A stretch of 37,957 nt of DNA. It comes from Bacteroidota bacterium. GTDB lineage: Bacteria; Bacteroidota; Bacteroidia; Chitinophagales; Chitinophagaceae. A model generated the notes under the pieces. The model made no database searches, was not told where the DNA came from, and saw only the letters and a program-made list of their open reading frames with translations. Made by a program: the position numbers and the translations under genes. Every line of letters begins with the position of its first letter. The first letter of the stretch is position 1. The stretch covers positions 1 through 37,957 of the forward strand of contig JABDFX010000018.1 of the NCBI GenBank assembly GCA_013286315.1. Reading direction: 5' to 3'. Shown one piece after another: positions 88 through 34,420 of the stretch.

Positions 88-92
88 TTGTA

Positions 93-120
93 AATTGTCA
101 ATTGTTAATTGTCAATTAGG
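93..120. repeat. AT-rich heptamer array (AATTGTC/AATTGTT)
   Basis: Four consecutive 7-bp units occupy this stretch: AATTGTC, AATTGTT, AATTGTC and AATTAGG. It begins six bases after the stop of the partial left-edge gene. Confidence 0.75.
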
Positions 121-147
121 GTGCCTTAGCCTCAGCCTTCGCCTCCT

Positions 148-245
148 GCCTCCTGCATCCAGCCTCCTGCATCCAGCCTCCTGCATCCAGCCTCCTGCAT
201 CCAGCCTCCTGCATCCAGCCTCCTGCATCCAGCCTCCTGCATCCA
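148..245. repeat. Seven perfect copies of a 14-bp tandem repeat (two heptamers)
   Basis: The 14-bp unit GCCTCCTGCATCCA is repeated seven times without error. On the minus strand it is two heptamers, GGATGCA and GGAGGCT. The array ends three bases from the stop codon (249-251) of the leftward permease, so the G-rich strand is the sense strand in that gene's 3' untranslated region. Perfect identity of seven copies suggests recent expansion by slippage or recombination. Confidence 0.95.
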
Positions 246-248
246 GCC

Positions 249-2642
249 TTACTCTGCCTTCAAACTCTTTACCGGATTTGCCATTGCAGCCTTTATACTC
301 TGAAAACTGACCGTCATGATTGTTATAATGATCGCGGAAATACCGGCGAGGGCAAATACCCACCAGGATATGTCTGTGCGATAGGAATAGTTTTGCAGCC
401 ATTGATGCATGAAATAATAAGAGACTGGTATAACTATGACCATGGCGATCATCACCAACACCACAAAATCCTTTGATAACAATTTCCACACAGAGAAAAC
501 GGATGCCCCCAATACTTTTCGCACGCCGATTTCTTTGGTTCGCTGTTCGGCTACATAAGACGCGAGACCGAATAATCCGAGACAGCTGATGAAAATGGCC
601 AGTACGGCGAAAAATCCGGAGAGTTGACCGATACGCGTTTCGGCGGCGAATTTGGCGGCAAATTCACTGTCGGCAAATTTATAATCGAAGGGAGCGGAGG
701 GAATGATCTTTTTGAAAATGGATTCGATTTTTGCGATGGATTCCGCTGCACTTTTACGGGGATTCAGTTTGAGATCCATCCAGTTCACATTTTCATAATC
801 CATGAAATAGAATGTGGGGTTCACCGGATCGTAGGGTGATTGCATAATCATGTCCTTGATCACACCGATCACAATTAGGTTTTTACCCGGCCTGGCCGTC
901 CACGTGACGATTTTACCAAGCGGATCTTTTAAATTCATAAATTTTACAGCTGCTTCATTGATCACGATGGCATTGGAGTCTGTTGTAAACGCCCTGGAGA
1001 AATCCCTGCCCTGTATGAATTGCCAGCCCACCGTCTTTCCAAAATCATGTGTAACCCAGATATTATCAAAGGCGCCGTTCACCGAAGGATCCTTCCCCTG
1101 CCAGCTGAATCCGTCGTTATTGGAATAAACTTCGGTAACAGGACTGGAAGATTCTGCAAAATTTGTAATAGCCCCGGCTCTCTCCATTTCGTTTTTCAGC
1201 AGATCAAACTTGCCATAAAATTCCGGCGATTTCATGCGGATCATCATGAGTCCATTCCGGTTATAACCAATGGGCCTGTTCCTTGTGTACTGAATCTGAT
1301 TGTAAACGATGACTGTTCCTATGATCAATGCAATTGAAATGGTGAATTGAACAACTACCAGTACTTTACGCGGAACTGATGCCAGCCGGCCGGTTCTGAA
1401 TGCGCCCTTGAGTACTTTCACCGGTTCAAAAGATGACAAATAAAGCGCAGGATAACTTCCGGCGACCGCAGTCGTAAAAATTGTGAAAGCCAGACAAAAT
1501 ATCCAGAACCAGATATTCGTCCAGGGAATAAACATTTCTTTGCTGGCCATATGATTGAACCAGGGCAGGAAAAGTTTTGCCAGTAATAGTGAAAGTCCGA
1601 ATGAGCATAAAACGACCAGCAGGGATTCAGTATAAAACTGACTAACCAGATTTTTTCTCAGCGACCCGATGGCCTTTCTGATACCGACTTCCCTGGCTCT
1701 TTTTTCAGACCTGGCGGTGCTTAGGTTCATAAAATTGATACAGGCAAGCAGCAATATAAAAACACCGATGATACCGAATAGTCTTACATATTCAATCAGT
1801 CCGCCGGTTTGAATTCCGTTTTCCCATTGCATCCGGAGATGCCAGTCTTTCATCGGTGCGAGAAAAAGTTTTGTCTTGTAGTGCTTGTCTTCCGGAATAT
1901 CCCGGATGAATTTTGCATCAGCGATATTCTTATCCACTGTAGCGAAATTTGTATGATCGGCGATTTGCACGAACAGCTGGAATGAGCTGTTTTCCCATCG
2001 GTCTTCGGTCCATTTGATCCATGTTTCAGAAGTGACATACAAGTCCCAGGGCGAAATAAAATCGAGATCACCAAATTCTGAATTGTGTACGAAGTCCTTA
2101 TAAACACCCGTAACCTTCACATCGAGTTTGCTATCGATACGCATGAGTTTATTCAGGGGATCGGCATCTCCAAACATCGCTTTGGCCGTTGATTCGGAAA
2201 GTATGATCGAATGTGGATCTTTTAAAGCGTCACGGGTGCCTGCCAGCATTTGCAGCGTGAACATATGCGGCGCTTCGGCCTGCATATAAATTCCTCTCTT
2301 CGAAAGATTTTTGCCGCCGGAAGAAATGATATGATCTCCGGTCCAAGAGGAGCTGATCACGTATTTGAAATTATTTCCGTAGCGGTTTCTCAGTTCCGGG
2401 GCCAGCGGTTCGGGCATGGCATTATATGTATGGATCTTTCCGTTCGATTCCTGGTTTTGCATCATCAGGCCGATGCGGTCGTAGTTTTCAAAGCTTTTAT
2501 TGTAGGAGATTTCATCCCAGATCCAGAGACCGATCAGCATGGCGACCGCCATTCCGATCGCCAGTCCACTGATATTTATAAAAGAAGAGGTTTTGTTTTT
2601 CAGCAGATTTCGATATGCAATCTTGAAATAGCTTCTAATCAC
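249..2642 (-). CDS. MacB/FtsX-type ABC transporter permease, paralogue A
   Basis: A 797-residue inner membrane permease of the large Bacteroidota type with two FtsX modules in one chain. A first membrane helix at about residues 20-43 is followed by a MacB-like periplasmic domain to about 280, then three helices. These carry the cytosolic motif REVGIRKAIG at about 317, thought to contact the ATPase. A fifth helix (about 430), a second periplasmic domain and three more helices with KEIGVRKVLG near 704 follow. The start is GTG; the leader is an AT-rich heptamer array. No ATPase gene is adjacent, so it must pair with one encoded elsewhere. The transported substrate cannot be read from sequence; lipoproteins, peptides or drugs are typical for the family. 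It is closest by eye to paralogue D (7876-10257) and is divergent from paralogue B. Confidence 0.9.
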   Translation of the reverse strand: MIRSYFKIAYRNLLKNKTSSFINISGLAIGMAVAMLIGLWIWDEISYNKSFENYDRIGLMMQNQESNGKIHTYNAMPEPLAPELRNRYGNNFKYVISSSWTGDHIISSGGKNLSKRGIYMQAEAPHMFTLQMLAGTRDALKDPHSIILSESTAKAMFGDADPLNKLMRIDSKLDVKVTGVYKDFVHNSEFGDLDFISPWDLYVTSETWIKWTEDRWENSSFQLFVQIADHTNFATVDKNIADAKFIRDIPEDKHYKTKLFLAPMKDWHLRMQWENGIQTGGLIEYVRLFGIIGVFILLLACINFMNLSTARSEKRAREVGIRKAIGSLRKNLVSQFYTESLLVVLCSFGLSLLLAKLFLPWFNHMASKEMFIPWTNIWFWIFCLAFTIFTTAVAGSYPALYLSSFEPVKVLKGAFRTGRLASVPRKVLVVVQFTISIALIIGTVIVYNQIQYTRNRPIGYNRNGLMMIRMKSPEFYGKFDLLKNEMERAGAITNFAESSSPVTEVYSNNDGFSWQGKDPSVNGAFDNIWVTHDFGKTVGWQFIQGRDFSRAFTTDSNAIVINEAAVKFMNLKDPLGKIVTWTARPGKNLIVIGVIKDMIMQSPYDPVNPTFYFMDYENVNWMDLKLNPRKSAAESIAKIESIFKKIIPSAPFDYKFADSEFAAKFAAETRIGQLSGFFAVLAIFISCLGLFGLASYVAEQRTKEIGVRKVLGASVFSVWKLLSKDFVVLVMIAMVIVIPVSYYFMHQWLQNYSYRTDISWWVFALAGISAIIITIMTVSFQSIKAAMANPVKSLKAE

Positions 2643-2650
2643 GCTTTAGT

Positions 2651-2670
2651 TATTAGTTATTAGTTATTAA
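2651..2670. repeat. AT-rich heptamers (TATTAGT) upstream of permease A
   Basis: TATTAGT, TATTAGT and TATTAA are arranged at 7-bp spacing. On the minus strand they form the leader directly before the GTG start of permease A. A similar array precedes the start of permease B on the other strand (2881-2904). Confidence 0.6.
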
Positions 2671-2690
2671 CTCACTGGATAAGGCGACCT

Positions 2691-2705
2691 AAACTGTGCC
2701 GGATT
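2691..2705 (-). promoter_or_regulatory. AAACTGTGC motif upstream of permease A
   Basis: AAACTGTGCCGGATT lies about 49 bp upstream of the GTG start of permease A. A near-identical AAACTGTGCGGAATT is found 38 bp upstream of permease F (18561-18575), and AAACTGTGT lies 16 bp upstream of the helical-repeat gene (14712-14720). Read in the direction of the gene the shared core is CACAGTTT. It could be a regulator binding site or part of a promoter. This is inferred from recurrence alone. Confidence 0.35.
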
Positions 2706-2782
2706 TGGATATCATTGTAAATCAGTCAACTGCTTCCTGAAACAGCAATCTGTTTTAATAAAATCGTACGGTTTTTGTCACG

Positions 2783-2801
2783 AAACCGGACAGTCCGGGT
2801 T
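2783..2801. promoter_or_regulatory. Palindrome CCGGAC-A-GTCCGG between divergent permeases
   Basis: A perfect 6+1+6 palindrome (CCGGACAGTCCGG at 2786-2798), extended by two further A-T pairs outside one mismatch, lies in the spacer between divergent permeases A and B. Its position suits an operator acting on both genes. No regulator gene is nearby to pair it with. Confidence 0.4.
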
Positions 2802-2880
2802 TTGTTTCCTGAATTAATAATCTGATTTGTATGAAGTTAACGTGATGGCACTCAGTTTGACTCTTTGTGCTGTGAGTTAA

Positions 2881-2904
2881 TAACTAATAATTAATAATTA
2901 ATAA
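2881..2904. repeat. AT-rich heptamers (AATTAAT) before permease B
   Basis: AATTAAT units in tandem run to the base before the TTG start of permease B. The leader is nearly all A and T and has no Shine-Dalgarno-like sequence, as is common in Bacteroidota. Confidence 0.65.
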
Positions 2905-5289
2905 TTGTTCAAGAACTATTTCAAAATAGCGCTTCGCAGTCTCTGGAAGCATAAAGCATTTTCTTTAATCAATATTCTGGGACTTGCAGTCGGTATGACG
3001 GCCTGCTTCCTGATATTTTTATACGTGCGCTTTGAAACGAGTTTTGATAATTTTCATTCGAAAGCCGGTCGTATCTACCGGGTTGTTTCTGAAGTCAGAA
3101 CGCCCACCGAGACCATCAAAATCGGCCTGACGACGACGCCCGTCGCCGTCAATATGAAACGGGATTTTCCGGAAGTGGAAGAAGCCGTGCGACTGGGAAG
3201 AGATGGCTTGCTGGTGCGGAAAGGGGATACCAAGTTTCAGGAGACAAATACTGTGCTGGCGGATTCCGGTCTTTTTAAGATTTTTGATTTCCCGCTGATC
3301 GAGGGTAACCGGAATACCGCGCTGAAGGAACCGATGAGTGTTATTCTATCACAAAGCGCGGCAAAAAAATATTTTGGAAATGGTAAGGCTTACGGACAGC
3401 ATCTTTTACTTACCGGCGCCGCCATCAATTCCACGGTGACCGGAATCATGAAAGATATTCCACGGAATTCACAGATCCAGGCAGACATGATCGTGTCGCT
3501 GTCTTCGTTTCAGGCTATTTATGGTCGCCCGATCAGCGACAGCGAATGGACCAATCATAACTACTATACATATATTTTACTGGCACCGCATGCGGATGCA
3601 AAAGCACTGGAGGCCAAACTTCCGGCATTTCAGGAATTGCATCATGGAGCAGAAGCGAAAAAATTGCAGATGCAGGACTATCTGAGCCTGGAACCTCTTC
3701 GCTATGTGTACCTGAGATCCAAACTCGATGGATTTGTAACGGGAAGTATTACCAATGTGTACATATTTTCCATCATTGCGATATTTATTCTTTGTATAGC
3801 CTGTATCAATTTTATCAATCTGACAACTGCCCGAAGCGTAGAACGCGCAAAAGAAGTGGGCATAAGGAAAGTCATTGGTGCGGTCAGGTCCCAGCTGGTC
3901 GGACAATTCATCGGCGAATCAATTATTATCAGTTTACTGGCATTTGTATTTGCCGTATTTCTGAGTTCTCTTCTGCTGCCTTTATTTAATCAGGTGGCCG
4001 GAAATCAGATCAGTGAAAGTATTTTCAGAAACCCCACTGATGTTGTTGGACTTTTTTGTCTGTCTTTGCTTGCCGGATTCCTGGCAGGCACTTATCCATC
4101 GCTTGTATTGTCTTCTTTTAAACCGGTGGTCGTTTTGAAAGGAAGGTTTTCAAGCGGTACAAAGGGCATGATTTTAAGAAAGGGGTTGGTGGTTTTCCAA
4201 TTTGCCATTTCGATCATTCTGATTGTGGGAACTCTGGTTGTTTATGCACAGTTGAGTTATATGCGGAAGCAGGACCTTGGGTTTTCGAAAGACCAGACGA
4301 TGGTGATCTTCACCAATTTTGATAAAAACAAGGAAGCTTTCAAACAATCACTTTCTATGATTCCCGGTGTGATGTCGAGTACTTTTTCTTCCGGTGTGCC
4401 GGGCGGCGATCATAATTCTGCCTATACACAGATTGAAAATAAGAAGGGTGAAATGCAAAAGACAAACCTTGACGGATATTTTGTGGACTTTGATTTTATA
4501 AAGCAATATGGATTTAAGATTGTCGCGGGTCGTCCCTTATCAAGAGAATTCAGAACGGATAGTTCGAAGGCCATGCTCATCAACGAAACGGCGGCAAAAA
4601 TGCTGGGTTATCAAACGCCGCAGGAAGCGGTCGGTCGTAATTTTGATCAGTGGGGCAGGCAGGGAAAGATCATCGGTGTGCTGAAGGATTTTAATTACGA
4701 ATCATTACAACAGAATATCAAACCCTTCACGATGCGGTTTGAATCATGGGGGTTCGGCACCATTTCAATCAAGATTTCATCTACGATGATGCCGGAAACA
4801 ATCAAAGCCATTAGTGATAAATGGGCACAGACCATACCCAACCGCCCATTTGAATATAATTTCCTGGATCAGCAATTTGATCAGAAATACCGGGCGGAAG
4901 ATAAATTTGGAAATTTATTTTTCAACTTTGCTGTATTGGCTATATTCATATCATGTCTTGGACTACTGGGGCTTGCCTCCTATAGTACGATTCAGCGTAC
5001 AAGAGAAATCGGTGTCCGGAAAGTGCTGGGTGCAAGCGTTTCGAACATAGTAAATTTGTTGTCTGTAGATTTTATCAAACTGGTATTGATTGCTTTTGTG
5101 ATAGCGGCACCCATCGGATTATTGGGCATGAATAAATGGCTACAGGATTTTGCCTATCATATTCATATTTCCTGGTGGGTGTTTGCTGTGGCGGGCATGA
5201 TTTCGATTGCTATCGCTTTTTTAACGATCAGTTTCCAGGCGATCAGGGCAGCGGTTGCGAATCCGGTCACCAGCTTACGGTCGGAGTAA
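2905..5289 (+). CDS. MacB/FtsX-type ABC transporter permease, paralogue B
   Basis: A 794-residue membrane permease with the same layout as its five paralogues: an N-terminal helix (about 20-42), a periplasmic MacB-like domain, three helices with KEVGIRKVIG at about 314, a helix near 420-440, a second periplasmic domain, and a C-terminal FtsX module with REIGVRKVLG at about 698. The start is TTG, giving the family N-terminus MFKNYFKIALRSL; no ATG fits. Permease C follows 81 bp downstream on the same strand, so B and C probably form one transcript. TGGCAC-N5-TTGAC at 2846-2861 resembles a sigma-54 -24/-12 element but lacks the expected GC at -12, so I do not call it. No ATPase gene is nearby and the substrate is unknown. 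Confidence 0.9.
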   Translation: MFKNYFKIALRSLWKHKAFSLINILGLAVGMTACFLIFLYVRFETSFDNFHSKAGRIYRVVSEVRTPTETIKIGLTTTPVAVNMKRDFPEVEEAVRLGRDGLLVRKGDTKFQETNTVLADSGLFKIFDFPLIEGNRNTALKEPMSVILSQSAAKKYFGNGKAYGQHLLLTGAAINSTVTGIMKDIPRNSQIQADMIVSLSSFQAIYGRPISDSEWTNHNYYTYILLAPHADAKALEAKLPAFQELHHGAEAKKLQMQDYLSLEPLRYVYLRSKLDGFVTGSITNVYIFSIIAIFILCIACINFINLTTARSVERAKEVGIRKVIGAVRSQLVGQFIGESIIISLLAFVFAVFLSSLLLPLFNQVAGNQISESIFRNPTDVVGLFCLSLLAGFLAGTYPSLVLSSFKPVVVLKGRFSSGTKGMILRKGLVVFQFAISIILIVGTLVVYAQLSYMRKQDLGFSKDQTMVIFTNFDKNKEAFKQSLSMIPGVMSSTFSSGVPGGDHNSAYTQIENKKGEMQKTNLDGYFVDFDFIKQYGFKIVAGRPLSREFRTDSSKAMLINETAAKMLGYQTPQEAVGRNFDQWGRQGKIIGVLKDFNYESLQQNIKPFTMRFESWGFGTISIKISSTMMPETIKAISDKWAQTIPNRPFEYNFLDQQFDQKYRAEDKFGNLFFNFAVLAIFISCLGLLGLASYSTIQRTREIGVRKVLGASVSNIVNLLSVDFIKLVLIAFVIAAPIGLLGMNKWLQDFAYHIHISWWVFAVAGMISIAIAFLTISFQAIRAAVANPVTSLRSE

Positions 5290-5293
5290 AGCA

Positions 5294-5328
5294 GGATGCA
5301 GGATGCAGGATGCAGGATGCTGGACGCG
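5294..5328. repeat. GGATGCA heptamer array after permease B
   Basis: Five 7-bp units (GGATGCA three times, GGATGCT, GGACGCG) begin four bases after the TAA stop of permease B. The G-rich strand is the sense strand. Confidence 0.9.
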
Positions 5329-5342
5329 AGAGGCAGTCGTTA

Positions 5343-5366
5343 ATAATTAATAATTAACAATTAATA
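5343..5366. repeat. AT-rich heptamers (AATTAAT/AATTAAC) before permease C
   Basis: AATTAAT, AATTAAC and AATTAAT occur in tandem and end a few bases before the GTG start of permease C. This is the same kind of leader as before permeases A and B. Confidence 0.6.
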
Positions 5367-5370
5367 AGTC

Positions 5371-7764
5371 GTGTTCAAAAATTACCTGAAAACATCGCTG
5401 CGCGCTTTGCTAAAGAACAAAACATATAGTTTTCTGAACATCTTTGGCCTGGCGATCGGCATCGCCTGTGCCGGACTGATATTTTTATGGGTGGAAGATG
5501 AACTGCATTTCGACCAGTTTAATGTTAAGAAAGACAGGTTATACTTTGCACGTGTAAATTCGTTTTTGAATTCGGGTGTGTTCACGCACGGATCAACACC
5601 TGGCGTTATGGCTCCCGCCATACAGGCAGAAATTCCGGGTATCGCCAATACCTGCCGCGCGTCTGAAAATGACACCAGGCTCTTATTTTCTATAAATAAC
5701 AAACCAGTGTATGCATCGGGAAAATATGTAGAGCCCTCTCTGTTTAACATGTTCACATTACCTTTTGTGCAGGGCAATCCAAAAACCGCCTTTGCACAAT
5801 TATATTCTCTGGTGATCACGGAGAAAACGGCGAAGAAGTTTTTTGGTAATGAGAAAAACGTGATCGGGAAAACGGTGCGTGTCGACAACAAACAGGATTA
5901 TGTGATCACCGGGGTGCTGAAAGATATCCCGGAAAATTCTTCTCTGAGATTTGAATGGGTGGCGCCTTTTCAAATCTGGTATCAGCAGAGTCCCTGGGCA
6001 TATGAATGGGGGAATAATTGCTTAAGCACTTATGTTGAATTAAAGCCGGGAGCCAGTCTGGATGCCATCAACAAACAACTCTTCAATTTTGTACAAAAAA
6101 GAGCACCTACGTCTACGGGACATGTCGTGCTGTTTGGTATGAATAACTGGCAACTATATGGTGACTTTGAGAATGGTAAACCCACGGGTAGTGGTCAGAT
6201 CGTTTATGTTCGGCTGTTTGGTATGATCGCCTGGATCATTTTGTTTATTGCCTGTATCAATTTTATGAATCTGGCCACGGCGCGGAGCGAGAAACGTGCC
6301 AGGGAAGTGGGTGTACGTAAAGTGATGGGTGCCGGAAGAAGAAAACTGATCGCTCAATTTATTGGCGAAGCTTTGTTTATGGCATTGCTGTCGGCCATTG
6401 TGGCAATTGTGATTATAGCAGCTTCATTGGGAGCATTTAATTTGCTTGTTCAGAAAAACCTGTCGCTGGAATTGAACAACCCGGTGCATTGGGTGGCTTT
6501 ACTAATGATCACGTGCATTTGCGGTGTTGTTGCAGGCAGTTATCCATCGTTGTACCTGTCATCGTTCAATCCCGTGTTTGTATTAAAAGGAATCAAAGTG
6601 AAAAGCGGCAGCGCTTTGTGGATCAGAAAAGGGCTGGTGGTGACTCAGTTCACCGTTTCCATCGTATTGATCATTGCCACGATTATTATTTTTCAACAGA
6701 TACAACATATTAAAGACAGAAACCTGGGATTTAACCGGAACGGTCTGCTCGAGTTGAGTATGCAGGGTGATATGAATAAACATTACGAATCCATCAAACA
6801 GGATCTGATGCAAACGGGACTTGTTCAGTATGCGGGATTGGCAGATCATCCAACCATTTATGGAGGAAATAATACGGATGGCCTTGCCTGGCAGGGAAAA
6901 GCGCCCGGCAGTAAAATTCTGATTTCGTGGAGAAGCGTGGACCCTGATTTTTTCTCTACGATGGATTTGAAGGTAATTGAAGGAAGAAATTTCTATGTGA
7001 CGGACACGTTGAATTATGATAATAAATCTTTGCATGCCAGTGCGATCATTACCGAGTCCCTGGCAAAACTCCTCGGACAGGGAACAGCGATCGGCAAAAC
7101 CATTTATGATGAGAACGATACCCTGCTTCATGCAACGGTGGTGGGTGTGGTGAATGATTATGTATATGGAAATATGTATGGCAAACCCGATCCGGTGATT
7201 TTTTTCTGTACGGCGCCGAGATTTGAGAACACCCTATACCTGAGGACCAAAGCAGGAACGAACGCAGAACATTTATTAACAGGTATTAAAGCAGTGATGA
7301 AGAAAGACAATCCGGCCTATCCGTTCGAATATCGTTTTGTGGATGATCAGTTTAATGACATGTTTCAGTCAGAAATGCTGATGAGCAAACTGTCGCGTGT
7401 ATTTGCGGCACTGACGATCCTGATTTCCTGTTTGGGTTTATTTGGTCTGGCAGCATATACGGCAGAGCGAAGGATTAAAGAGATTGGCATTCGTAAAGTG
7501 TTGGGTGCAACGGTAGTGAGTCTGGCTGGTTTGTTATCTATTGAATTTTTAAAACTGATATTGTTTTCCCTGCTGCTGGCATTTCCGCTGGCCTGGCTGG
7601 CGATGCATAAATGGTTGCAGAATTATGCCTATCGTGTCAATATCCATTGGTGGGTTTTTATCATGGCGGGCGTTGCAGCTATTCTGATCGCTATTATAAC
7701 CGTCAGTTTTCAGGCGATCAGGGCAGCGGTTTCGAATCCGGTTAAAAATTTACGGACTGAATAG
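5371..7764 (+). CDS. MacB/FtsX-type ABC transporter permease, paralogue C
   Basis: A 797-residue double-FtsX permease. Helix 1 spans about residues 20-42; the first periplasmic domain runs to about 280. Three helices with REVGVRKVMG near 309, a helix near 425-445, a second periplasmic domain, and a final FtsX module with KEIGIRKVLG near 702 follow. The start is GTG, giving MFKNYLKTSLRALLKNK, almost identical to the start of paralogue E. It lies 81 bp downstream of permease B and is probably co-transcribed with it, perhaps as partners in a heterodimeric transporter (inference). It converges with permease D, and the space between their stops is filled by a long hairpin. Confidence 0.9.
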   Translation: MFKNYLKTSLRALLKNKTYSFLNIFGLAIGIACAGLIFLWVEDELHFDQFNVKKDRLYFARVNSFLNSGVFTHGSTPGVMAPAIQAEIPGIANTCRASENDTRLLFSINNKPVYASGKYVEPSLFNMFTLPFVQGNPKTAFAQLYSLVITEKTAKKFFGNEKNVIGKTVRVDNKQDYVITGVLKDIPENSSLRFEWVAPFQIWYQQSPWAYEWGNNCLSTYVELKPGASLDAINKQLFNFVQKRAPTSTGHVVLFGMNNWQLYGDFENGKPTGSGQIVYVRLFGMIAWIILFIACINFMNLATARSEKRAREVGVRKVMGAGRRKLIAQFIGEALFMALLSAIVAIVIIAASLGAFNLLVQKNLSLELNNPVHWVALLMITCICGVVAGSYPSLYLSSFNPVFVLKGIKVKSGSALWIRKGLVVTQFTVSIVLIIATIIIFQQIQHIKDRNLGFNRNGLLELSMQGDMNKHYESIKQDLMQTGLVQYAGLADHPTIYGGNNTDGLAWQGKAPGSKILISWRSVDPDFFSTMDLKVIEGRNFYVTDTLNYDNKSLHASAIITESLAKLLGQGTAIGKTIYDENDTLLHATVVGVVNDYVYGNMYGKPDPVIFFCTAPRFENTLYLRTKAGTNAEHLLTGIKAVMKKDNPAYPFEYRFVDDQFNDMFQSEMLMSKLSRVFAALTILISCLGLFGLAAYTAERRIKEIGIRKVLGATVVSLAGLLSIEFLKLILFSLLLAFPLAWLAMHKWLQNYAYRVNIHWWVFIMAGVAAILIAIITVSFQAIRAAVSNPVKNLRTE

Positions 7765-7781
7765 ACGGAAGGTGGGAGGCG

Positions 7782-7871
7782 GGAGGCAGGACGCAGGACG
7801 CATGACGCAGGAAGCAGGACGCCAGAAGAATTTTCCTGCTTCCAGCGTCATGCGTCCTGCCTCCTGCGTCC
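7782..7871. terminator. Long hairpin between convergent permeases C and D, built from heptamers
   Basis: The left arm 7782-7819 and right arm 7834-7871 pair over 38 positions with three mismatches, around a 14-nt loop (7820-7833). The inner 24 bp (7796-7819 with 7834-7857) have a single mismatch. Both arms consist of GGANGCA-type heptamers. The hairpin starts 17 bp after the stop of C and ends four bp before the stop of D, so it could end transcription or stabilise mRNA ends from both sides. There is no long T-run, so a classical intrinsic terminator is uncertain. Confidence 0.7.
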
Positions 7872-7875
7872 AGCC

Positions 7876-10257
7876 TTATTCCGTTTTTAAACTTTTCGTC
7901 GGGTTCATCAGTGCTGCCGTGATACTTTGGTAGCTCACGGTTAACAAAGTTATCAGAATGGCGCCTGCGCCTGCTGCCCCAAATACCCACCAGGGCATTG
8001 ACGTACGATATTCATAATGCTGTAGCCATTGCCCCATAAAATAATAGGCCACCGGAGTAGCAATACATAATGAAATAATGACCAGGTTAATAAAATCCCT
8101 GCTCAGTAATCGCCATAGACTAAAGACAGATGCACCGAGTACTTTTCGAACGCCGATTTCCTTGATGCGTTGTTCGGCGGTAAATGTGGCCATTCCGAAT
8201 AAGCCCAGGCAACTGATAAAGATGGCCAGTACTGCGAACAGACTGGCGAGTTTACCTATGCGTTCCTCGTCACTGAATTTTTTTGCATACGCTTCATCCG
8301 CAAACTGATAGGAGAAGGGAACGGAAGGACTATATGATTTACATACTGCCTCAATTTTTTGGATGGCATCATGCGCGCTGATATGGGGATTGATTCTGAT
8401 AATCACATAGGAAAAATCTTCGTGGGTAATGTAATAAATAGTCTGTTTTGCCGGTTCATAAGGCGATTGCATCACCATATCCTTTACAACACCAATTACG
8501 TGATAGTCCTTTCTCCCAACCCGGATATTTTCTCCTACCGGATTTTTAAGACCCATATATTTGACGGCGGCTTCATTGATGATCAATGCGGAAGAATCTG
8601 TCAGATATTGATTTGAAAAATCTCTGCCATCGGTAAATTGCCAGCCGACCGTTTTTCCATAATCAGTAGTTACACGGATATTGCCAAAATCATCTGTCAT
8701 AGCGGGATCCTTTCCCTTCCATTGTAATCCGCTCCGGTTATTCTCGATGCCGGTGGTCGGGCTTGAAGACTGAGCCATATACGTTACTGCTCCGGCACTT
8801 TTCAGATCCGCACTCACCGCATCGAAATGGTCGTGCAGGTCGTTCGTCTGCATTCCAATATAAAGCAACCCGTTTCTGTTATATCCAACGGGACGATTCC
8901 TGGCAAACTGGATTTGATTGAAAACAACAATAGTACCGACGATCAGAACGACGGAGACGGTGAATTGCAACACGACCAATGCTTTTCTTGGTATGGCGGC
9001 AAGTTTCCCCGCTTTGAAAACACCCTTCAATACTTTGACCGGTCTGAAAGAAGAAAGATATAGTGCCGGATAACTTCCAACGATCAGCGCAGTAAATAAT
9101 GTGAATCCTGTGCATAGGATCCAGAACAAACCATTGCTCCAGAGAATGGTCATTTGCTTATCGGCTAATTGATTAAAAGATGGCAATATCAGCCAGACCA
9201 GCAGCAGTGAAAATGCAAAAGCGAAGAGAGTGGTCAGCAGGGATTCACAATAAAACTGAATGATCAGTTGCGATCTCAGTGAACCGACCGCTTTACGGAT
9301 GCCTACTTCTTTTGCCCGCTTCTCACTGCGGGCCGTGCTCAGATTCATAAAATTAATACAGGCCAGCAACAATACGAATATTCCTATGATTCCGAACATC
9401 CATACATATTGTATCGCACCACCGGTATTCACACCATTTTTAAATTCGCTGTACAATCTCCATTTACTCATCGGCTGCAGAAAAATCGCCGGTTTAAAAC
9501 GTGCATCCTCCTTGCCTGAATGGTCCAGCACTATATTTTTTATTTTTTCCGTAACCCTGTTCATATCCGCATGATCTGCCATCTGAACATACATCTGCCA
9601 GCTGTCATCGCCCCAGTCTGAAAGAACACGTTCGGGTATGAATGTTTTCAAATAATAATCCCAGGGTGCGAGGAAACTCAGGTCGTGTAAACTTGAATTG
9701 GAGGGTATGTCCTCATACACACCGGTCACCTTAAAATTGTTTTTATTATCGAGCATGATCGTTTTGCCCGTTGGATCTGCGTCACCAAAAAGAGCCTTTC
9801 CTACGGATCGCGAAATCAGGATCGATGCCGGATCCTGTAAGCCATTGCGACTTCCTTTCAGCATCTGAAGAGAAAAAATTTCCGGACCTTCTTTATCCAT
9901 GAAAGTGCCCTTGAAGGATAATTTTTTTTCGTCAACCGTCAGAATATGTGAATCCGTCCATGATACCATGGCGATATGTTTGAAATCACTGCCATAACTT
10001 TTTCTGATGGCTGCATCCAGTGCGATGGGGATGGCCACAAACGTCGACGTATTGTCATTAAAATTCTGATCCAGCATCACCTGGGCGACCCGGTCGTAGT
10101 GCTGATGATATTTGTTGAAGGAAAGTTCATTCCAGATCCATAACCCGATCAGTATGGCTACGGTCATTCCGACAGACAATCCTGCAATATTGATAAAAGA
10201 ATGCGCTTTGTTTTTGCGTAAATTTCTGAGAGCCGTGATTAGATAGTTTTTGATCAT
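7876..10257 (-). CDS. MacB/FtsX-type ABC transporter permease, paralogue D
   Basis: A 793-residue double-FtsX permease starting at ATG (MIKNYLITALRNLRKNK). Helix 1 spans about residues 20-43. A MacB-like periplasmic domain, three helices with KEVGIRKAVG near 317, a helix at about 430-450, a second periplasmic domain and the C-terminal module with KEIGVRKVLG near 700 follow. It is the nearest relative of paralogue A in this window (both read GLWIW.E at the end of helix 1). It lies 163 bp downstream of paralogue E on the same strand, so E and D may be one transcript. The spacer contains a 14-unit GGTTGRC array ending eight bases before this gene's start. No promoter is evident in that spacer. 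Confidence 0.9.
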   Translation of the reverse strand: MIKNYLITALRNLRKNKAHSFINIAGLSVGMTVAILIGLWIWNELSFNKYHQHYDRVAQVMLDQNFNDNTSTFVAIPIALDAAIRKSYGSDFKHIAMVSWTDSHILTVDEKKLSFKGTFMDKEGPEIFSLQMLKGSRNGLQDPASILISRSVGKALFGDADPTGKTIMLDNKNNFKVTGVYEDIPSNSSLHDLSFLAPWDYYLKTFIPERVLSDWGDDSWQMYVQMADHADMNRVTEKIKNIVLDHSGKEDARFKPAIFLQPMSKWRLYSEFKNGVNTGGAIQYVWMFGIIGIFVLLLACINFMNLSTARSEKRAKEVGIRKAVGSLRSQLIIQFYCESLLTTLFAFAFSLLLVWLILPSFNQLADKQMTILWSNGLFWILCTGFTLFTALIVGSYPALYLSSFRPVKVLKGVFKAGKLAAIPRKALVVLQFTVSVVLIVGTIVVFNQIQFARNRPVGYNRNGLLYIGMQTNDLHDHFDAVSADLKSAGAVTYMAQSSSPTTGIENNRSGLQWKGKDPAMTDDFGNIRVTTDYGKTVGWQFTDGRDFSNQYLTDSSALIINEAAVKYMGLKNPVGENIRVGRKDYHVIGVVKDMVMQSPYEPAKQTIYYITHEDFSYVIIRINPHISAHDAIQKIEAVCKSYSPSVPFSYQFADEAYAKKFSDEERIGKLASLFAVLAIFISCLGLFGMATFTAEQRIKEIGVRKVLGASVFSLWRLLSRDFINLVIISLCIATPVAYYFMGQWLQHYEYRTSMPWWVFGAAGAGAILITLLTVSYQSITAALMNPTKSLKTE

Positions 10258-10265
10258 AGCTTTTT

Positions 10266-10363
10266 GGTTGGCGGTTGGCGGTTGGTGGTTGACGGTTGAC
10301 GGTTGACGGTTGGCGGTTGGCGGTTGGCGGTTGACGGTTGACGGTTGACGGTTAGCGGATGGC
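10266..10363. repeat. GGTTGRC heptamer array, 14 units, between permeases E and D
   Basis: Fourteen contiguous 7-bp units occur on the plus strand. In order they are two GGTTGGC, one GGTTGGT, three GGTTGAC, three GGTTGGC, three GGTTGAC, GGTTAGC and GGATGGC. Variants come in runs of three, as if multi-unit blocks had been duplicated. For the leftward permease D the sense strand is the C-rich one, unlike arrays that directly follow stop codons. Confidence 0.95.
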
Positions 10364-10390
10364 GGAAATTCTTTGACTCAATACTTCCAT

Positions 10391-10404
10391 CCCGCATGTG
10401 CGGG
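10391..10404. terminator. Short GC-rich hairpin after permease E
   Basis: CCCGCA-TG-TGCGGG is a perfect 6-bp stem, extended by one T-A pair on each side, 16 bp past the stop of permease E. A two-base loop is too tight for the full stem, so the end pairs would open. It may be an mRNA-end structure; no T-run follows on the minus strand. Confidence 0.4.
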
Positions 10405-10420
10405 ACAGTCTTCCAGACTT

Positions 10421-21156: not shown

Positions 21157-21157
21157 A

Positions 21158-22569: not shown

Positions 22570-22601
22570 AAGTTTTAGGCTTTAGGCTTTGGGCTTTAGG
22601 C
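22570..22601. repeat. Inverted copy of the AAAGCCY array
   Basis: This is the exact reverse complement of 22466-22497 over 32 bases. It abuts the TAG stop (22602-22604) of the next leftward gene. The 72 bp between the arms (22498-22569) are AT-rich with no gene. Confidence 0.95.
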
Positions 22602-23462
22602 CTAATGCAACGCATTAGGAGTAGGAGTGGGTTCTTCCTTTCTGGCCGGCTGCCTTTGATAAGAACGTTGTCTTTTATAATCCTGGTAAGCGAGTTTGAT
22701 ATAATCAAAGAATTCGTAATCAGTGGCGATCTTGGTGAATTCGTATGAAGGACGGAAACGAAACATGAAACTGTCTGCAGCATCCCCGGTGAGGCCGGTT
22801 ATTTTTTTCACGATATAACGTGTGAACCGATGATCGATGAATTTATCCTGTTCATCTTCTATTAATCTTTTCTGAAATGCAAGCATGCGCCTGTTCTTTT
22901 TAAAATTGAACATATTGATCAGCGCATCTAAATCAAGACCGGCATTGCCATTCGCTCCTTCCGTTATTTCCAGACCGGGTTTTTTGAAATTAAAAATTTT
23001 CTCATAGTCTTTCCGGTTTTGCAGGGAATCCAGATAATAATTTTTGGGTGCCACCCGCACTTCGGCCAGTTGGGTTGGATTTACATGGAGGGCGATATCG
23101 AATCCAGTTGTGGAATTCATCATATTTACAGGGAAGTACTGGGTCGCGCGGCCGAGATATGAAAAACGGAGGGAATCATTGGCGTTTACCCGGATCATAT
23201 AATTTCCGTTTGAATCGGTTGTGGTACCACTTCCACAACTGCATAAAACGGTTACAGCATCCAGGGGTCTTGTTTTATACATATTAAATACGGTACCATG
23301 GATAGTAACCTGCTGTGCATCGGCTCTTACTGTACAAAAAGCCAGAAGAACAAGGAAGATCGATATTCTGAGATATGCGTAAAAACGGGCCAAACAGGAT
23401 AATTTAAAAAATAGGAACGCCAAAATAGGACGAAGGGTTCTAACAATTATGATTTTATTCAA
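22602..23462 (-). CDS. Secreted protein with carboxypeptidase-regulatory-like domain
   Basis: A hydrophobic signal region (ISIFLVLLAFCTVRADA) is followed by a beta-sandwich typical of CarboxypepD_reg-like domains: VTIHGTVFNMYKTRPLDAVTV, then TTTDSNGNYMIRV, about 90 residues. The remaining 150 residues are charged and helical with no recognised domain, and the C-terminus is proline-rich (EEPTPTPNALH). It is likely exported to the periplasm or outer membrane. Similar stand-alone proteins are common and uncharacterised in Bacteroidota. The first possible start is TTG 23462; TTG 23393 (MARFYAYLRISIF) would place the signal peptide more normally and give 263 residues. The stop codon is part of a small inverted repeat (22603-22618). 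Confidence 0.7.
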   Translation of the reverse strand: MNKIIIVRTLRPILAFLFFKLSCLARFYAYLRISIFLVLLAFCTVRADAQQVTIHGTVFNMYKTRPLDAVTVLCSCGSGTTTDSNGNYMIRVNANDSLRFSYLGRATQYFPVNMMNSTTGFDIALHVNPTQLAEVRVAPKNYYLDSLQNRKDYEKIFNFKKPGLEITEGANGNAGLDLDALINMFNFKKNRRMLAFQKRLIEDEQDKFIDHRFTRYIVKKITGLTGDAADSFMFRFRPSYEFTKIATDYEFFDYIKLAYQDYKRQRSYQRQPARKEEPTPTPNALH

Positions 23463-23483
23463 ACTTAAGGAAAGCTTTATGAT

Positions 23484-23515
23484 AGTATGGAAGTATGGAA
23501 GTATGGAAGTCTGGA
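23484..23515. repeat. Octamer array AGTATGGA
   Basis: Three AGTATGGA units and one AGTCTGGA in tandem, period 8 bp. It lies just upstream of the leftward secreted protein gene and next to the large CCAACCG array. Confidence 0.85.
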
Positions 23516-23543
23516 AGTACTAAATCACTTAAACTTAATCACA

Positions 23544-23698
23544 AACCGCCAACCGCCAACCGCCACCGCCAACCGCCAACCGTCAACCGCTAACCGCCAA
23601 CTGCCAACCGCCAACTGCCAACCGCCAACCGCCAACCGTCAACCGTCAACCGCCAACCGTCAACCGTCAACCGCCAACCGTCAACCGTCAACCGCCAA
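23544..23698. repeat. Large CCAACCG/TCAACCG heptamer array overlapping the end of purN
   Basis: About 22 units of 7 bp (mostly GCCAACC and GTCAACC), with one shortened unit near 23563. It is the longest array in the window. The right end extends 15-18 bp into the purN reading frame, whose TGA stop (23681-23683) is part of a GGTTGAC unit. The sense strand for purN is G-rich. Confidence 0.95.
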
Positions 23699-24301
23699 AA
23701 TGCTTTCCAGCCAGCGGGCTATCTGCTCGGGATAATGCCTGTGTTCCAGAATATGAATTTTTTCAGCCAGTGTTTCCGCCGTTTCTTCCGGAGAGAGGTT
23801 GACGCTGGCCTGAAAGAAGATTCTTCCGTGATCATATAACTCGTCAACATAATGTATCGTAATACCACTTTGATATTCACGGGCACCAACCACCGCTTCA
23901 TGTACAGCTTTTCCATACATACCCTTTCCTCCATAGGCCGGTAAAAGGGCCGGGTGAATATTCAGGATCCGGTCAGGATAAGCTCTGATCAGTTCTGGTG
24001 GAATTTTCCAGAGAAATCCCGCAAGTACTATGAATGAAATATCCCTGTCCGCAAATTCTTCCAGATAATGAGATCCACGAAAGAATTTTTCCTTTTCAAT
24101 GAGTAGAGCAGGTATACCGGCTGCCCTGGCAATATCCAGAATTCCTGCACCGATTTTGTTACAAACGATCAGGCAAACCTGAACCCTTCGGTTCAAAACC
24201 AAATGTCCCTCTTCATGAAAATAACGGATGATTTCCCGCGCATTGGTACCCTGTCCGGAAGCAAAAATGGCCAGTCGGACAGGAGGTAATTCTTCCTTCA
24301 T
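23681..24301 (-). CDS. purN: Phosphoribosylglycinamide formyltransferase
   Basis: A 206-residue enzyme of purine synthesis. It transfers a formyl group from 10-formyltetrahydrofolate to glycinamide ribonucleotide. The N-terminal substrate loop FASGQGTN (13-20), NIHPALLPAYGGKGMYG (114-130) with likely catalytic N114 and H116, and GITIHYVDE (146-154) with likely D153 are all present. I start it at ATG 24301 (MKEELPPVRLAIF), which fits family length. The in-frame ATG at 24394 would add 31 residues without family resemblance. The last five codons (LAVDG) and the stop are written by the heptamer array, so the C-terminus appears to have been altered by repeat growth. It is divergent from the act operon. 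Confidence 0.93.
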   Translation of the reverse strand: MKEELPPVRLAIFASGQGTNAREIIRYFHEEGHLVLNRRVQVCLIVCNKIGAGILDIARAAGIPALLIEKEKFFRGSHYLEEFADRDISFIVLAGFLWKIPPELIRAYPDRILNIHPALLPAYGGKGMYGKAVHEAVVGAREYQSGITIHYVDELYDHGRIFFQASVNLSPEETAETLAEKIHILEHRHYPEQIARWLESILAVDG

Positions 24302-24673
24302 ATAAAAAAACTTGAACCGGGTCTTTATGATTACCCGAACCGGGGCCCTTAATGAATAAGAAATGTTCCTGAAACCCGGAACGATTTCCAACATCTTTGA
24401 ACGGCTCGTTTATAATTAATATCTAATAATTAATAATTGCTGTAAAGATGTGGTAAAAAAATGGTTTGAATAACGGGCTTTTTAACATCGGAATTCGCGC
24501 AGAAACGCGATGACAATGCAATGACATTCATCTTTTAAAAAATTGTATAATCGGCTGAAATGCAGGCCAGATAAGGCAAAAAAAAAATTCAGCATGTTGG
24601 TATATTGTTAATTTCCTGACTTACTTTTGCAGCCAACCGAGATGATTTTTCACATTTATACATTGTTGTATAT
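24302..24673. other. Divergent intergenic region between purN and actA, 372 bp
   Basis: It contains a GC-rich segment just upstream of purN (24316-24346) with a possible CGGGT/ACCCG stem followed by seven T's on the minus strand, a short AATTAAT-type AT-rich run (24413-24437), and the act promoter (24597-24629). I see no gene or RNA in the rest. Confidence 0.5.
24597..24629 (+). promoter_or_regulatory. Promoter of the act-cta respiratory operon
   Basis: The -7 box TACTTTTG (24622-24629) matches TAnnTTTG exactly. The -33 region has TTGG (24597-24600), 21 bp upstream, one base from TTTG. Transcription would begin near 24636, about 38 bp before the actA start. Confidence 0.6.
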
Positions 24674-25942
24674 ATGCATCATAACAGACTAAGTGCTTTC
24701 CGAATATCCTTCATTTTTTTTCTCACTGCATTTTTCCTGTTTTCCGGTAATTTATCGATGGCTCAGGATGGTAAGGCTTTATTTCAAAGCGATTGCGCCT
24801 CCTGCCATAATCCGATCAAACAAGTAACCGGTCCTGCCTTAAAAGGAGTGACCGCCCGTGTGCCCGATCAAAAACTTCTTCATGCCTGGATCCGGAATAA
24901 CTCAGCCGTCCTGGCATCCGGTAATAAATATTTTAACGACCTCTATATTCAGTTTGGCAAAACGCCCATGAATACATTTCCGCAACTTACGGATGCGGAA
25001 ATTGATGCCATTCTGAAGTATGTAGAAACCTATCCCGAACCCGGAGGCGGTGGCGCTAAAAATCCAAATGAGGGTCCGGCCACACAAACGCTGGAATCCG
25101 ATAATAGTCTCCTGTACGGCATTCTTACCCTGATTCTGGCCGTCATCATGCTGGTCCTTTTACAGGTCAACAGCAACCTGAGGAAACTTTCTGATGATAA
25201 ATCCGGTGTTCCATCCCACGATCCCATTCCATTTTACCGCAATAAAGTTTATCTCACCTTCCTGGGACTTGTTCTCTTTGTGATAGGAGGATATTATATT
25301 GTACAGGCTGCCATCGGACTGGGACGTCAACAAAATTATCAACCGGAGCAGCCGATTTTCTTCTCCCATAAGGTTCATCCGGGAACCAACCAGATCAGTT
25401 GCCTGTATTGTCATGGTGGTGCCTGGGATTCAAAAATGGCCGGGGTACCCTCTCTGAATGTTTGTATGAACTGTCATGCAGCCATCAATGATTACAAAGG
25501 GGAACCACTTTATCGCGCGAACGGCAAGGAAGTGGATGCCACCGGGGAAATACAAAAACTCTATTCATACACCGGCTATGATCCCAAATCCGGCAAATAC
25601 ACAGAGCCCGGTAAACAGATCGAGTGGGTAAAGATCCATAATCTGCCCGATCATGTATATTTCAATCATTCCCAGCATATCCGCGCAGGCAAAGTCCAGT
25701 GCCAGACCTGTCATGGAAGCATTACTGAAATGAACGAAGTGAAACAATTCTCCGAACTCAGCATGGGCTGGTGTATTAACTGTCACCGCACTACAAAAGT
25801 CAATTTCCCGGATTCTGCCGGTAACGGAAATAAATTCTATAGCATTTACGAAAAATTCCACCAGAACCTTTCAACCGGAAAAATGGATAGTGTTACGGTG
25901 GAAAATATCGGGGGGACGGAGTGTCAGAAATGTCACTACTAA
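24674..25942 (+). CDS. actA: Alternative complex III subunit A, hexaheme cytochrome c
   Basis: A 422-residue membrane-anchored cytochrome of the quinol-oxidising alternative complex III. It has a signal peptide ending at SMA (30) and a class I cytochrome c domain with CASCH (41-45) and a likely methionine ligand in KTPMNTFPQ. Two membrane helices (about 142-165 and 188-212) follow, then five more CxxCH motifs (243, 264, 343, 367, 417). The pentaheme part matches ActA; the N-terminal monoheme domain is an addition relative to the simplest pentaheme form. It passes electrons from the FeS/quinol part to the oxidase. It is first gene of the operon, with its own promoter. An AGTATAAG octamer array separates it from actB. 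Confidence 0.92.
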   Translation: MHHNRLSAFRISFIFFLTAFFLFSGNLSMAQDGKALFQSDCASCHNPIKQVTGPALKGVTARVPDQKLLHAWIRNNSAVLASGNKYFNDLYIQFGKTPMNTFPQLTDAEIDAILKYVETYPEPGGGGAKNPNEGPATQTLESDNSLLYGILTLILAVIMLVLLQVNSNLRKLSDDKSGVPSHDPIPFYRNKVYLTFLGLVLFVIGGYYIVQAAIGLGRQQNYQPEQPIFFSHKVHPGTNQISCLYCHGGAWDSKMAGVPSLNVCMNCHAAINDYKGEPLYRANGKEVDATGEIQKLYSYTGYDPKSGKYTEPGKQIEWVKIHNLPDHVYFNHSQHIRAGKVQCQTCHGSITEMNEVKQFSELSMGWCINCHRTTKVNFPDSAGNGNKFYSIYEKFHQNLSTGKMDSVTVENIGGTECQKCHY

Positions 25943-25951: not shown

Positions 25952-25991
25952 AGTATAAGAGTATAAGAGTATAGGAGTATAAGAGTGGAAG
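25952..25991. repeat. Octamer array AGTATAAG between actA and actB
   Basis: Four full 8-bp units (AGTATAAG three times, AGTATAGG) and a degenerate fifth (AGTGGAAG). It starts ten bases after the actA stop, inside the operon. Confidence 0.85.
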
Positions 25992-33219: not shown

Positions 33220-33269
33220 TCGTTCCGTTATCGATAAGGATTTAAAACGATTAAATTTTTTTAAGTATC

Positions 33270-34319
33270 ATGTCCAGCTATTTTCTGTTAGCGATTTTAT
33301 TGTTGGGATTTGTGATCACGTTTCAGATTGCGAAAGCCAGTGAGTATGTAGGCATTCTGAGAGGGGAAAAGAAAAATAATGAATCGAATAACAGGATCAA
33401 TGGATTCCTGATGATTGTCTTCCTGGTGCTCGGCCTGATTGGTGTTTACTGGTGTAATGAATTGTTTAAAGGTAAAATACTTGGAAAAGCCGCATCCGAT
33501 CATGGGGAGAAAATCGACCAGATGCTCTACATTACAATTGTCATCACAGGGGTGGTATTTTTTATTACACAAATCCTGCTGTTCTGGTTTTCTTTCAAAT
33601 ACCAGTTTTCTGAAAAAAGGAAGGGTTATTATTTCCCGCATAATAATAAACTGGAGGTTATCTGGACCGTTGTTCCGGCGATCGCACTGACCGTGCTGGT
33701 TGGTTTTGGACTGATGTACTGGTTCCAGATCACCGGCGAAGCGCCAAAAAATGCACTCCAGGTTGAAATTACGGGGAAGCAATTCGGATGGATCTTTCGT
33801 TATCCGGGAAAAGATAATGTGTTTGGAAATAAATACTATAAGAATATCAGTGACGCGGAAAATAATTCTCTCGGTTTATTATGGGACGATCCGAAGACGC
33901 ACGATGATATAGTTATAAATTCTACCATGTATGCTGTTGTGAACCAACCGTTGAAACTCATTATCAATTCCCGCGATGTGATTCACGATGTAGGTCTGGC
34001 TCATTTCAGAATGAAAATGGATGCAGTTCCCGGCACACCCACCACTATGTGGTTCACGCCGTTGTACACGACAGAAGAAATGAAGAAATCAACCGGTAAT
34101 CCGGATTTTGAATATGAAATTTCCTGCGACCAGATGTGTGGCCGGGGACATTATACGATGAAGGGAATTATAAAGATTGTTACGGCAGAAGAATTTATAC
34201 TGTGGAAAGCAAAACAGGTTTCGAATTATGCACTGGTGATGAAAGATAAATTACCGGCAGCTGATTCAGTTAAGACGACTGCTGTGAGTATGCCTGCGAA
34301 ACTGATTGCGTCTAAATAA
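33270..34319 (+). CDS. ctaC: Cytochrome c oxidase subunit II (CuA)
   Basis: A 349-residue subunit with two to three N-terminal membrane helices (about 4-24, 50-70 and 90-115) and a periplasmic cupredoxin domain. The CuA ligands are visible: H239 in DVIHD, then C286, C290, H294 and M297 in CDQMCGRGHYTM. The residue between the cysteines that is usually Glu is Gln288; its ligand is the backbone carbonyl, so copper binding should persist. There is no C-terminal cytochrome c domain, so this is not a caa3 subunit; electrons would come directly from ActA/ActE or from a separate cytochrome. Heptamer repeats begin two bases after the stop. Confidence 0.95.
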   Translation: MSSYFLLAILLLGFVITFQIAKASEYVGILRGEKKNNESNNRINGFLMIVFLVLGLIGVYWCNELFKGKILGKAASDHGEKIDQMLYITIVITGVVFFITQILLFWFSFKYQFSEKRKGYYFPHNNKLEVIWTVVPAIALTVLVGFGLMYWFQITGEAPKNALQVEITGKQFGWIFRYPGKDNVFGNKYYKNISDAENNSLGLLWDDPKTHDDIVINSTMYAVVNQPLKLIINSRDVIHDVGLAHFRMKMDAVPGTPTTMWFTPLYTTEEMKKSTGNPDFEYEISCDQMCGRGHYTMKGIIKIVTAEEFILWKAKQVSNYALVMKDKLPAADSVKTTAVSMPAKLIASK

Positions 34320-34320
34320 G

Positions 34321-34380
34321 GGTTGGCGGTTGGCGGTTGGCGGTTGGCGGTTGGCGGTTAGTTGGCGGTTGGTGGTTGGC
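34321..34380. repeat. GGTTGGC heptamer array between ctaC and ctaD
   Basis: Eight or so 7-bp units (GGTTGGC five times, a shortened GGTTA, GGTTGGT, GGTTGGC) begin two bases after the ctaC stop. The sense strand is G-rich. Confidence 0.95.
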
Positions 34381-34390
34381 AGTAAAAGGC

Positions 34391-34420
34391 GTTAAGCATT
34401 ACGCGTTAAGCGTTAAGCGT
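34391..34420. repeat. GTTAAGC heptamer array between ctaC and ctaD
   Basis: GTTAAGC, ATTACGC, GTTAAGC, GTTAAGC: a second heptamer family placed directly after the GGTTGGC array in the same 136-bp gap. Confidence 0.85.

Follow-up and report, generated by a model that had tools for sequence, protein, structure and literature searches.

The DNA analyzed here (the window) is a stretch of 37,957 nucleotides from a Bacteroidota bacterium of the family Chitinophagaceae (assembly GCA_013286315.1, contig JABDFX010000018.1, positions 1 to 37,957), and many of its gene junctions are occupied by short tandem arrays, mostly with a period of 7 bp. Wherever a hairpin occurs, each arm is a tandem array of the same 7-bp (or 8-bp) unit, the second inverted relative to the first, and hairpins of this build elsewhere enclose a gene of the S23/IVP family (PF05635). 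The arrays of the window probably belong to a dispersed class of hairpin elements found between genes, of which they would be arms, whether intact or single; other members of the class carry an S23/IVP gene in the loop.

Arrays at the gene junctions of the window

Tandem Repeats Finder calls were compared with the list of open reading frames (ORFs). As an earlier note made from the sequence alone had described, an array stands at every one of the 12 junctions that lie between the left edge and purN (a formyl transferase gene, 23681-24394), and two more are at act-cta operon junctions (25952-25986 and 34321-34420); a further one lies at 24412-24438. The array at 12860-12894, one of the 12, is inside a called ORF (10421-12904), homologues of which align only from about residue 20. 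All six units named in the note were located, namely AATTGTC (86-117), GGANGCA types (133-249, 5291, 7782, 7834, and 18767), AATTAAT types (2877, 5340, 16069, and 16115), GGTTGRC (10266, 12860, 34321, and in reverse at 21076 and 23544), AAAGCCY (22419-22601), and GTTAAGC (34389). The periods were also as described, mostly 7 bp, with 8 bp at 23484 and 25952 and a mixture of 6 and 7 at 15081-15180. The statement that the unit differs at nearly every junction was too strong, as a few families recur both in the window and genome-wide, and the inverted partner arms of three window hairpins had been missed. Those hairpins are made by 5 of the 20 window arrays that score at least 13.

Lag-7 arrays are about four times denser in the window (17 in 38 kb) than in the rest of the genome sample defined below (85 in 769 kb). 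The arrays sit between protein genes and not in a 23S rRNA gene, and no Rfam match at gathering level was found in the window. An intrinsic-terminator scan of 7600-24700, which admits loops of 3 to 8 only, lists none of the three hairpins. The unit TAACTGA, known from heptamer repeats discussed below, is absent among the Tandem Repeats Finder rows of the window. The nearest relatives of the window actB come from Bacteroidota/Chitinophagaceae metagenome-assembled genomes, not from filamentous cyanobacteria.

Period, unit families, and placement across the genome

The genome of the window (G000) is a 202-contig metagenome bin, 58.8% complete, of which 807,066 of 3,314,637 bases (the longest contigs and the window) were sampled. 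At a fixed score, this sample holds 102 arrays at lag 7, 33 at lag 8, and 4 at lag 6, with none at lags 3 to 5, 9, and 10; one second-order Markov shuffle gave none at any lag from 3 to 24. The excess of 7-bp arrays that the earlier note proposed to test for is present across this sample. A slightly lower threshold, used for all later counts, gave 147 arrays (110 of 7 bp and 37 of 8 bp), among which several units recur, for example AAGTATGG 17 times, AAAGCCT 16, AACCGCC 15, and AACGCGT 11.

Tandem junctions hold 84 of these arrays, convergent junctions 38, and divergent junctions 13, while 10 lie inside called genes and 2 at an edge. The placement at gene ends that had been claimed is pronounced in G000, where 75 of 122 arrays lie no more than 10 nt from the stop codon concerned, with 27.1 expected from uniform placement in the same intergenic region; a relative, G007, gave 5 of 9 with 1.6 expected. 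Of 82 arrays in tandem junctions of G000, 57 are closer to the upstream stop and 25 to the downstream start, the starts being approximate because genes were called by a simple custom script.

Inverted pairing and fixed polarity

Many of these arrays pair with an inverted neighbor. A partner in inverted orientation was found within 150 nt for 64 of 147 arrays in G000, 10 of 12 in G007, and 32 of 35 in a further relative, G014, compared with 3, 0, and 1 in reversed-sequence controls; a direct partner within that distance was found for 14 of the 147. Among the 58 neighboring pairs within 150 nt in G000, all 11 that join two 8-bp arrays are inverted, and the 43 that join two 7-bp arrays comprise 23 inverted, 12 direct, and 8 undecided; the other 4 are of mixed period. 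Inverted pairs outnumber direct ones at 0 to 130 nt (33 versus 7), stand at 4 versus 2 from 300 to 700 nt, and are equal beyond 700 nt (20 versus 20). Three of the four inverted pairs at 300 to 700 nt are at S23 genes. Intergenic stems number 71 in G000, 18 in G007, and 77 in G014, with 3, 0, and 2 after one shuffle.

In the recurrent unit families of G000, it is also fixed which sequence forms the 5' arm. Polarity in this sense is single in all eight G000 unit families that have at least two hairpins (P of about 1e-6 if independent), which is not what independent seeding would give. The earlier proposal of one mechanism acting on many seeds, rather than one mobile repeat, is not supported, on this ground and because units recur at many loci. 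A separate, nonperiodic hairpin family with a common start like TAGTGTGGTGAAT has three copies in convergent junctions of G000 (C7:6632-6782, C9:26217-26367, and C6:10839-11002).

S23 genes enclosed by periodic arms

S23/IVP genes are known from the intervening sequences (IVS) of 23S rRNA. PF05635, the 23S rRNA IVP or S23 four-helix bundle, was one of three families tested as the cargo of such hairpins, together with the Y1 transposase (RAYT, REP-associated tyrosine transposase) and the GxxExxY nuclease. It has six matches in G000 and was also found in the four further relatives examined, with 26 matches and 20 loci retrieved. A representative protein, P0001, belongs to TIGR02436 and matches a solved chain, 2rld_A, of an uncharacterized protein. 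The family is present in 162 of 198 genomes of the order and 193 of 247 of the phylum.

We scored a gene as enclosed when its two 250-nt flanks share an inverted repeat scoring at least 12. By this measure, 18 of 20 S23 loci from the five genomes and 20 of 30 further loci of the order are enclosed (38 of 50), as are 15 of 30 loci phylum-wide. The loci are the best-scoring matches returned and not a random sample, and they include a few near-copies; two of them (L166 and L175) are not independent because their left arms are identical. Among ordinary genes of 250 to 900 nt, 12 of 326 are enclosed, one of these 12 being itself S23, and 7 of 150 mismatched flank pairs reach the score. In the 53 positive loci of the 80, self-matching of the arms at lag 7 averages 60% of positions, compared with 23 to 31% at lags 4 to 6 and 8 to 12, and the best lag is 7 in 47 loci, 8 in 5, and 12 in 1.

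Within G000 itself, S23 genes lie in hairpin loops outside the window, for example at L135, L140, L145, and L149. Five G000 cassettes, out of six matches, have the units GGTTGGC, AAAGCCT, AATTGT, GCAGGAC, and AACGC, which resemble the families of the window, and they match the polarity of the empty hairpins of the same genome. Among 24 genomes labeled as one genus, all six that are rich in GGTTGAC arrays hold S23, compared with 4 of the 18 others (P = 0.0016).

Of the five genomes examined for the GxxExxY nuclease (PF13366), G014 alone has matches, and the family was rejected as cargo. Three of six loci tested there (L150, L151, and L154) have flanking inverted repeats scoring at least 12, and two arm sequences are similar to those of empty hairpins in the same genome. 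At L140, the start of the gene that follows moxR appears inverted at the far end of the S23 cassette, beside a run of N, which is possibly an assembly fault.

The enclosure extends to plasmids and other phyla. P0001 matches 25 plasmid records, 11 of them from Nostoc, and in the best 12 of the 25 all S23 genes are enclosed by inverted repeats (score 13 to 41), across four phyla, with the left arm best at lag 7 in 11 of the 12. The hosts are Nostoc, Dolichospermum, Euhalothece, Bernardetia, Treponema saccharophilum, and Monoglobus. Of 29 neighboring genes at ten of these plasmid loci, none is so enclosed. The earlier comparison with the heptanucleotide repeats of cyanobacteria is strengthened by the Nostoc plasmids, whose S23 genes also have heptamer arms.

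At L277, from Monoglobus, an S23-like ORF missing from the gene table sits in a type I restriction system, with hsdS on one side and hsdR on the other, and has 7-periodic arms around it. On a Nostoc plasmid (L268), the S23 gene adjoins a XisI gene; the excerpt of PMC4679880 notes a distribution of XisH/XisI similar to that of TAACTGA repeats.

One junction, several states

The same junction can be filled, empty, or bare in different relatives. Downstream of murB, in 12 genomes including that of the window, two have S23 in an array hairpin, four have an empty hairpin with other arms, and six have neither. Eight genomes have a close moxR; at its junction with the next gene, S23 lies in a hairpin in three of them, the hairpin is empty in two, S23 stands without arms in one, and neither is present in two. 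The three filled moxR sites have the units GGTTGGC, GGTTGAC, and ATGGTGG, so both arms differ in unit, though their S23 proteins are 62 to 76% identical; the two arms, some 420 to 470 nt apart, therefore seem to have changed unit together.

Junctions of the window also vary among relatives. At the junction 22419-22601, 6 of 20 genomes with the gene (that of the window included) have a hairpin within about 70 nt past the aligned gene end, with at least four kinds of arm, and 14 have no hairpin there. The actA-actB junction also carries 8-bp arrays in three relatives (L029, L030, and L031), but of other units. The constant period with a changing unit, reported earlier along the window, is thus seen between relatives at a single junction as well.

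Features of the window

The arrays and hairpins of the window are collected in Table 1.

Table 1. Tandem arrays and hairpins of the window, with neighboring genes, inverted partners, and predicted RNA folds
Position	Feature	Context	Inverted partner within 150 nt	RNA fold
86-249	AATTGTC array (86-117) and 14-bp CAGCCTCCTGCATC array (133-249)	Adjoins stop of MacB-like gene 249-2642 (-)	None
2646-2669	TTAGTTA array	Divergent junction	None
2877-2906	TTAATAA array	Divergent junction shared with 2646-2669 array	None
5291-5367	GCAGGAT array (5291-5324) and TTAATAA array (5340-5367)	First array begins 1 base past stop codon	None for either
7777-7876	Hairpin, GCAGGAC-type arms of 43 nt, loop 14	Flanked by two convergent MacB-like genes	Hairpin	7766-7880: -80.8 kcal/mol, z -10.3
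10266-10365	GGTTGRC array, 14 copies		None
12860-12894	GGTTGAC array, 5 perfect copies	Inside 5' end of ORF 10421-12904 as called	None
15081-15180	TAAGGC array, 6/7-bp mix
16069-16148	Hairpin (intact 16069-16145), TAATTAT-type arms, loop 11	Flanked by convergent genes	Hairpin	16069-16145: -22.3 kcal/mol, z -7.2
18710-18797	GAGGCGTGAGGCAG and TGCATCC arrays	End at stop of feoB (18798-20900, -)
21076-21148	CAACCGC array	Adjoins stop of chromate transporter gene (21158-22429, -)	None
22419-22601	Hairpin, (GCCTAAA)n / (TTTAGGC)n arms; best stem 22466-22601, 32 bp, loop 72	Ends at stop of gene 22602-23462 (-)	Hairpin	22466-22601: -61.3 kcal/mol, z -10.4
23484-23519, 23544-23698	8-bp AGTATGGA array and AACCGCC array (22 copies)	Second array crosses purN stop	None for either
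24412-24438	ATAATTA array	purN-actA interval
25952-25986	8-bp AGTATAAG array	actA-actB junction, 9 nt past actA stop	None
34321-34380, 34389-34420	GGTTGGC array and GCGTTAA array	COX2-COX1 junction	None for either

Six MacB/FtsX-like permease genes lie at 249-18523. An array lies no more than 200 nt from an end in 6 of 11 genes of this kind outside the window, compared with 74 of 317 other genes longer than 900 nt. A 534-residue ORF at 13092-14696 has no Pfam match at an E value of 0.001.

Proposed hairpin class and alternative explanations

The reading of the arrays as arms of one hairpin class draws on the architecture of the arms, their stop-side placement, their fixed polarity in G000, the enclosure of S23 genes, and the alternation of states at shared junctions. 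Several observations weigh against it. Within the window, 15 of the 20 arrays scoring at least 13 have no partner arm within 150 nt, so most window arrays are linked to the class by unit family and placement alone, and a profile search found no PF05635 match in the contig of the window. The check on stop distance, which bears out the claimed gene-end placement in G000 and G007, is weak in G014, with 4 of 29 arrays within 10 nt and 2.6 expected; 20 of 25 tandem-junction arrays of that genome are still on the stop side. Half of the phylum-wide S23 loci lack arms, as does the moxR-site S23 gene of G020, and in three positive loci (L137, L213, and L229) the stop codon and the right arm are separated by more than 130 nt. 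The two features are not always found together in a genome: G009 and G020 have at least six S23 matches, yet the 80 and 40 kb sampled from them hold a single array each; in G002 a single S23 goes with no array in 40 kb; and G022, which is 78% complete, has hairpins but gave no match to S23.

The loops and arms themselves add further points of this kind. The loops of 27 empty hairpins are unrelated, save for one pair with 17 nt in common, and no S23 remnant was found in the loops of the 27 compared. Nothing therefore shows that empty hairpins derive from filled ones, and the idea that they are deleted S23 elements was rejected. A mirrored order of variant units between the two arms was persuasive by eye, but permutation of the unit order equals it on average, and only 4 of 53 cases reach P ≤ 0.1, no better than chance, and the idea was dropped; the in-register comparison of arms is in addition biased because the register was picked as the best one.

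The alternative that survives best, though we consider it unlikely, is that hairpins selected at 3' ends as terminators or mRNA stabilizers arise locally, that slippage favors 7-bp units and so gives periodic stems, and that S23 genes merely tend to insert into such hairpins. Arrays after stops and their depletion in divergent junctions (13 of 135) fit this account, as do the strong folds of the window hairpins and the unrelated loops of the 27 hairpins compared, and one survey found heptamers to be the most abundant of the long simple repeats in the majority of its genomes (Mrazek 2007, cited in the excerpt of PMC4679880). Counting against it are the recurrent unit families with fixed polarity, the association with S23 in four phyla, the many single arrays, and the number of stems in convergent junctions, only 24 for 77 junctions.

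Binding sites for a regulator, held at 7-bp spacing as proposed for the TAACTGA repeats, are a very improbable explanation. The spacing is indeed strict, and proteins that bind heptamers are discussed for TAACTGA in the excerpt of PMC4679880. Against this stand the many different units within a single genome and the preference for stops over starts in tandem junctions.

Marginally less credible still are elements like repetitive extragenic palindromes (REP) and bacterial interspersed mosaic elements (BIME) moved by a RAYT. REP and BIME elements are dispersed intergenic palindromes, and those of the window genome are likewise dispersed, intergenic, palindromic, and of fixed polarity. The arms here, however, are periodic tandem arrays of changing unit, and Y1_Tnp was not found in G000, G005, G007, and G017 and had three matches in G014; RAYT as the mover was rejected on the zero matches in G000, a genome only 58.8% complete. 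Finally, an artefact of short-read metagenome assembly, which the fragmented bin and a run of N inside its moxR array might suggest, can be given almost no credence and for the class is largely refuted already by identical architecture on complete plasmids and in the one-contig genomes G279 (L227) and G398 (L238).

Relation to known repeats

A close structural parallel is the 23S rRNA IVS. In Coxiella, according to the excerpt of PMC4990558, complementary ends form a long stem with the S23p gene in the loop, tandem heptameric repeats that vary in copy number by strain precede the S23p start codon, and the IVS is cut by RNase III in vitro. The three window hairpins share the long stem formed by complementary ends. 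They differ in lying between protein genes, in being empty of an S23p ORF, and in having arms that are themselves arrays.

The short tandem repeats (STRR) of filamentous cyanobacteria are, in the excerpts of PMC2670836 and PMC2408588, intergenic 7-bp tandem repeats able to form hairpins, as 5 of the 20 stronger window arrays do. The STRR csR4 of Nostoc PCC 7120 (ATTGCGAATTGCGAATTG) has a unit identical to that of the S23 arms in Nostoc N6 and ATCC 53789. STRR belong to another phylum, and S23 is not mentioned in those excerpts. The TAACTGA repeats are also intergenic heptamer arrays, reported in the excerpt of PMC4679880 from five Bacteroidetes as well as cyanobacteria, so that the earlier view of no described counterpart in Bacteroidota has to be revised; they have one unit and lie mostly just upstream of start codons in the main genome described there, whereas the arrays here are stop-proximal. 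Heptameric G-quadruplex (G4) repeats of Xanthomonas and Nostoc are likewise nearer the 5' neighboring ORF than the downstream one, but they have one G-rich unit per genome, and a G4 structure is proposed for them (excerpt of PMC4692102).

Proposed mechanism and significance

For the hairpin class we infer mobility, processing by RNase III, and a function of S23. No transposition, excision, or RNA processing was observed; the hairpin may spread through the genome by copying, as a small element that does or does not carry S23. Copy number would change by slippage on the short unit, and the two arms would stay alike through selection for pairing or because sequence is copied from one to the other, so that the unit could drift in concert while the period and the hairpin persist. 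The units GGTTGAC, GGTTGAT, and GGTGGAT are successive single substitutions. In RNA, the hairpin would form a long duplex at the 3' end of an mRNA, where it could be cut by RNase III, protect the transcript, or end it, as in the IVS of 23S rRNA. Arrays that stand alone would be members whose second arm was lost or never existed.

A broader proposal is offered tentatively, as one we hold possible but doubtful. Cyanobacterial STRR, TAACTGA-like repeats, the Bacteroidota arrays, and the heptamers of 23S rRNA IVS might be one hairpin class of several phyla with S23p as its own protein, and S23p, or a reverse transcriptase acting with it, might copy or rewrite the arms, which would leave the 7-bp period constant and the unit not. 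PF05635 is reported to resemble Avd of diversity-generating retroelements (excerpt of PMC10053308), a likeness that does no more than hint at a role of S23 in copying nucleic acid.

Heptamer repeats, hairpin-forming STRR, and IVS with S23p were each known already, and the link between S23 and the arrays appears to be the new part; no literature connecting intergenic heptamer arrays with S23 genes was found in open-licence full texts among the matches listed. The hairpin class may tie together repeat types hitherto described separately. Heptamer repeats have had no agreed cause, and S23/IVP proteins are said in the excerpt of PMC4990558 to be without known function. The occurrence of S23 genes in heptamer-array hairpins in four phyla, and the alternation of filled and empty hairpins at shared junctions, give these proteins and these repeats a common context.

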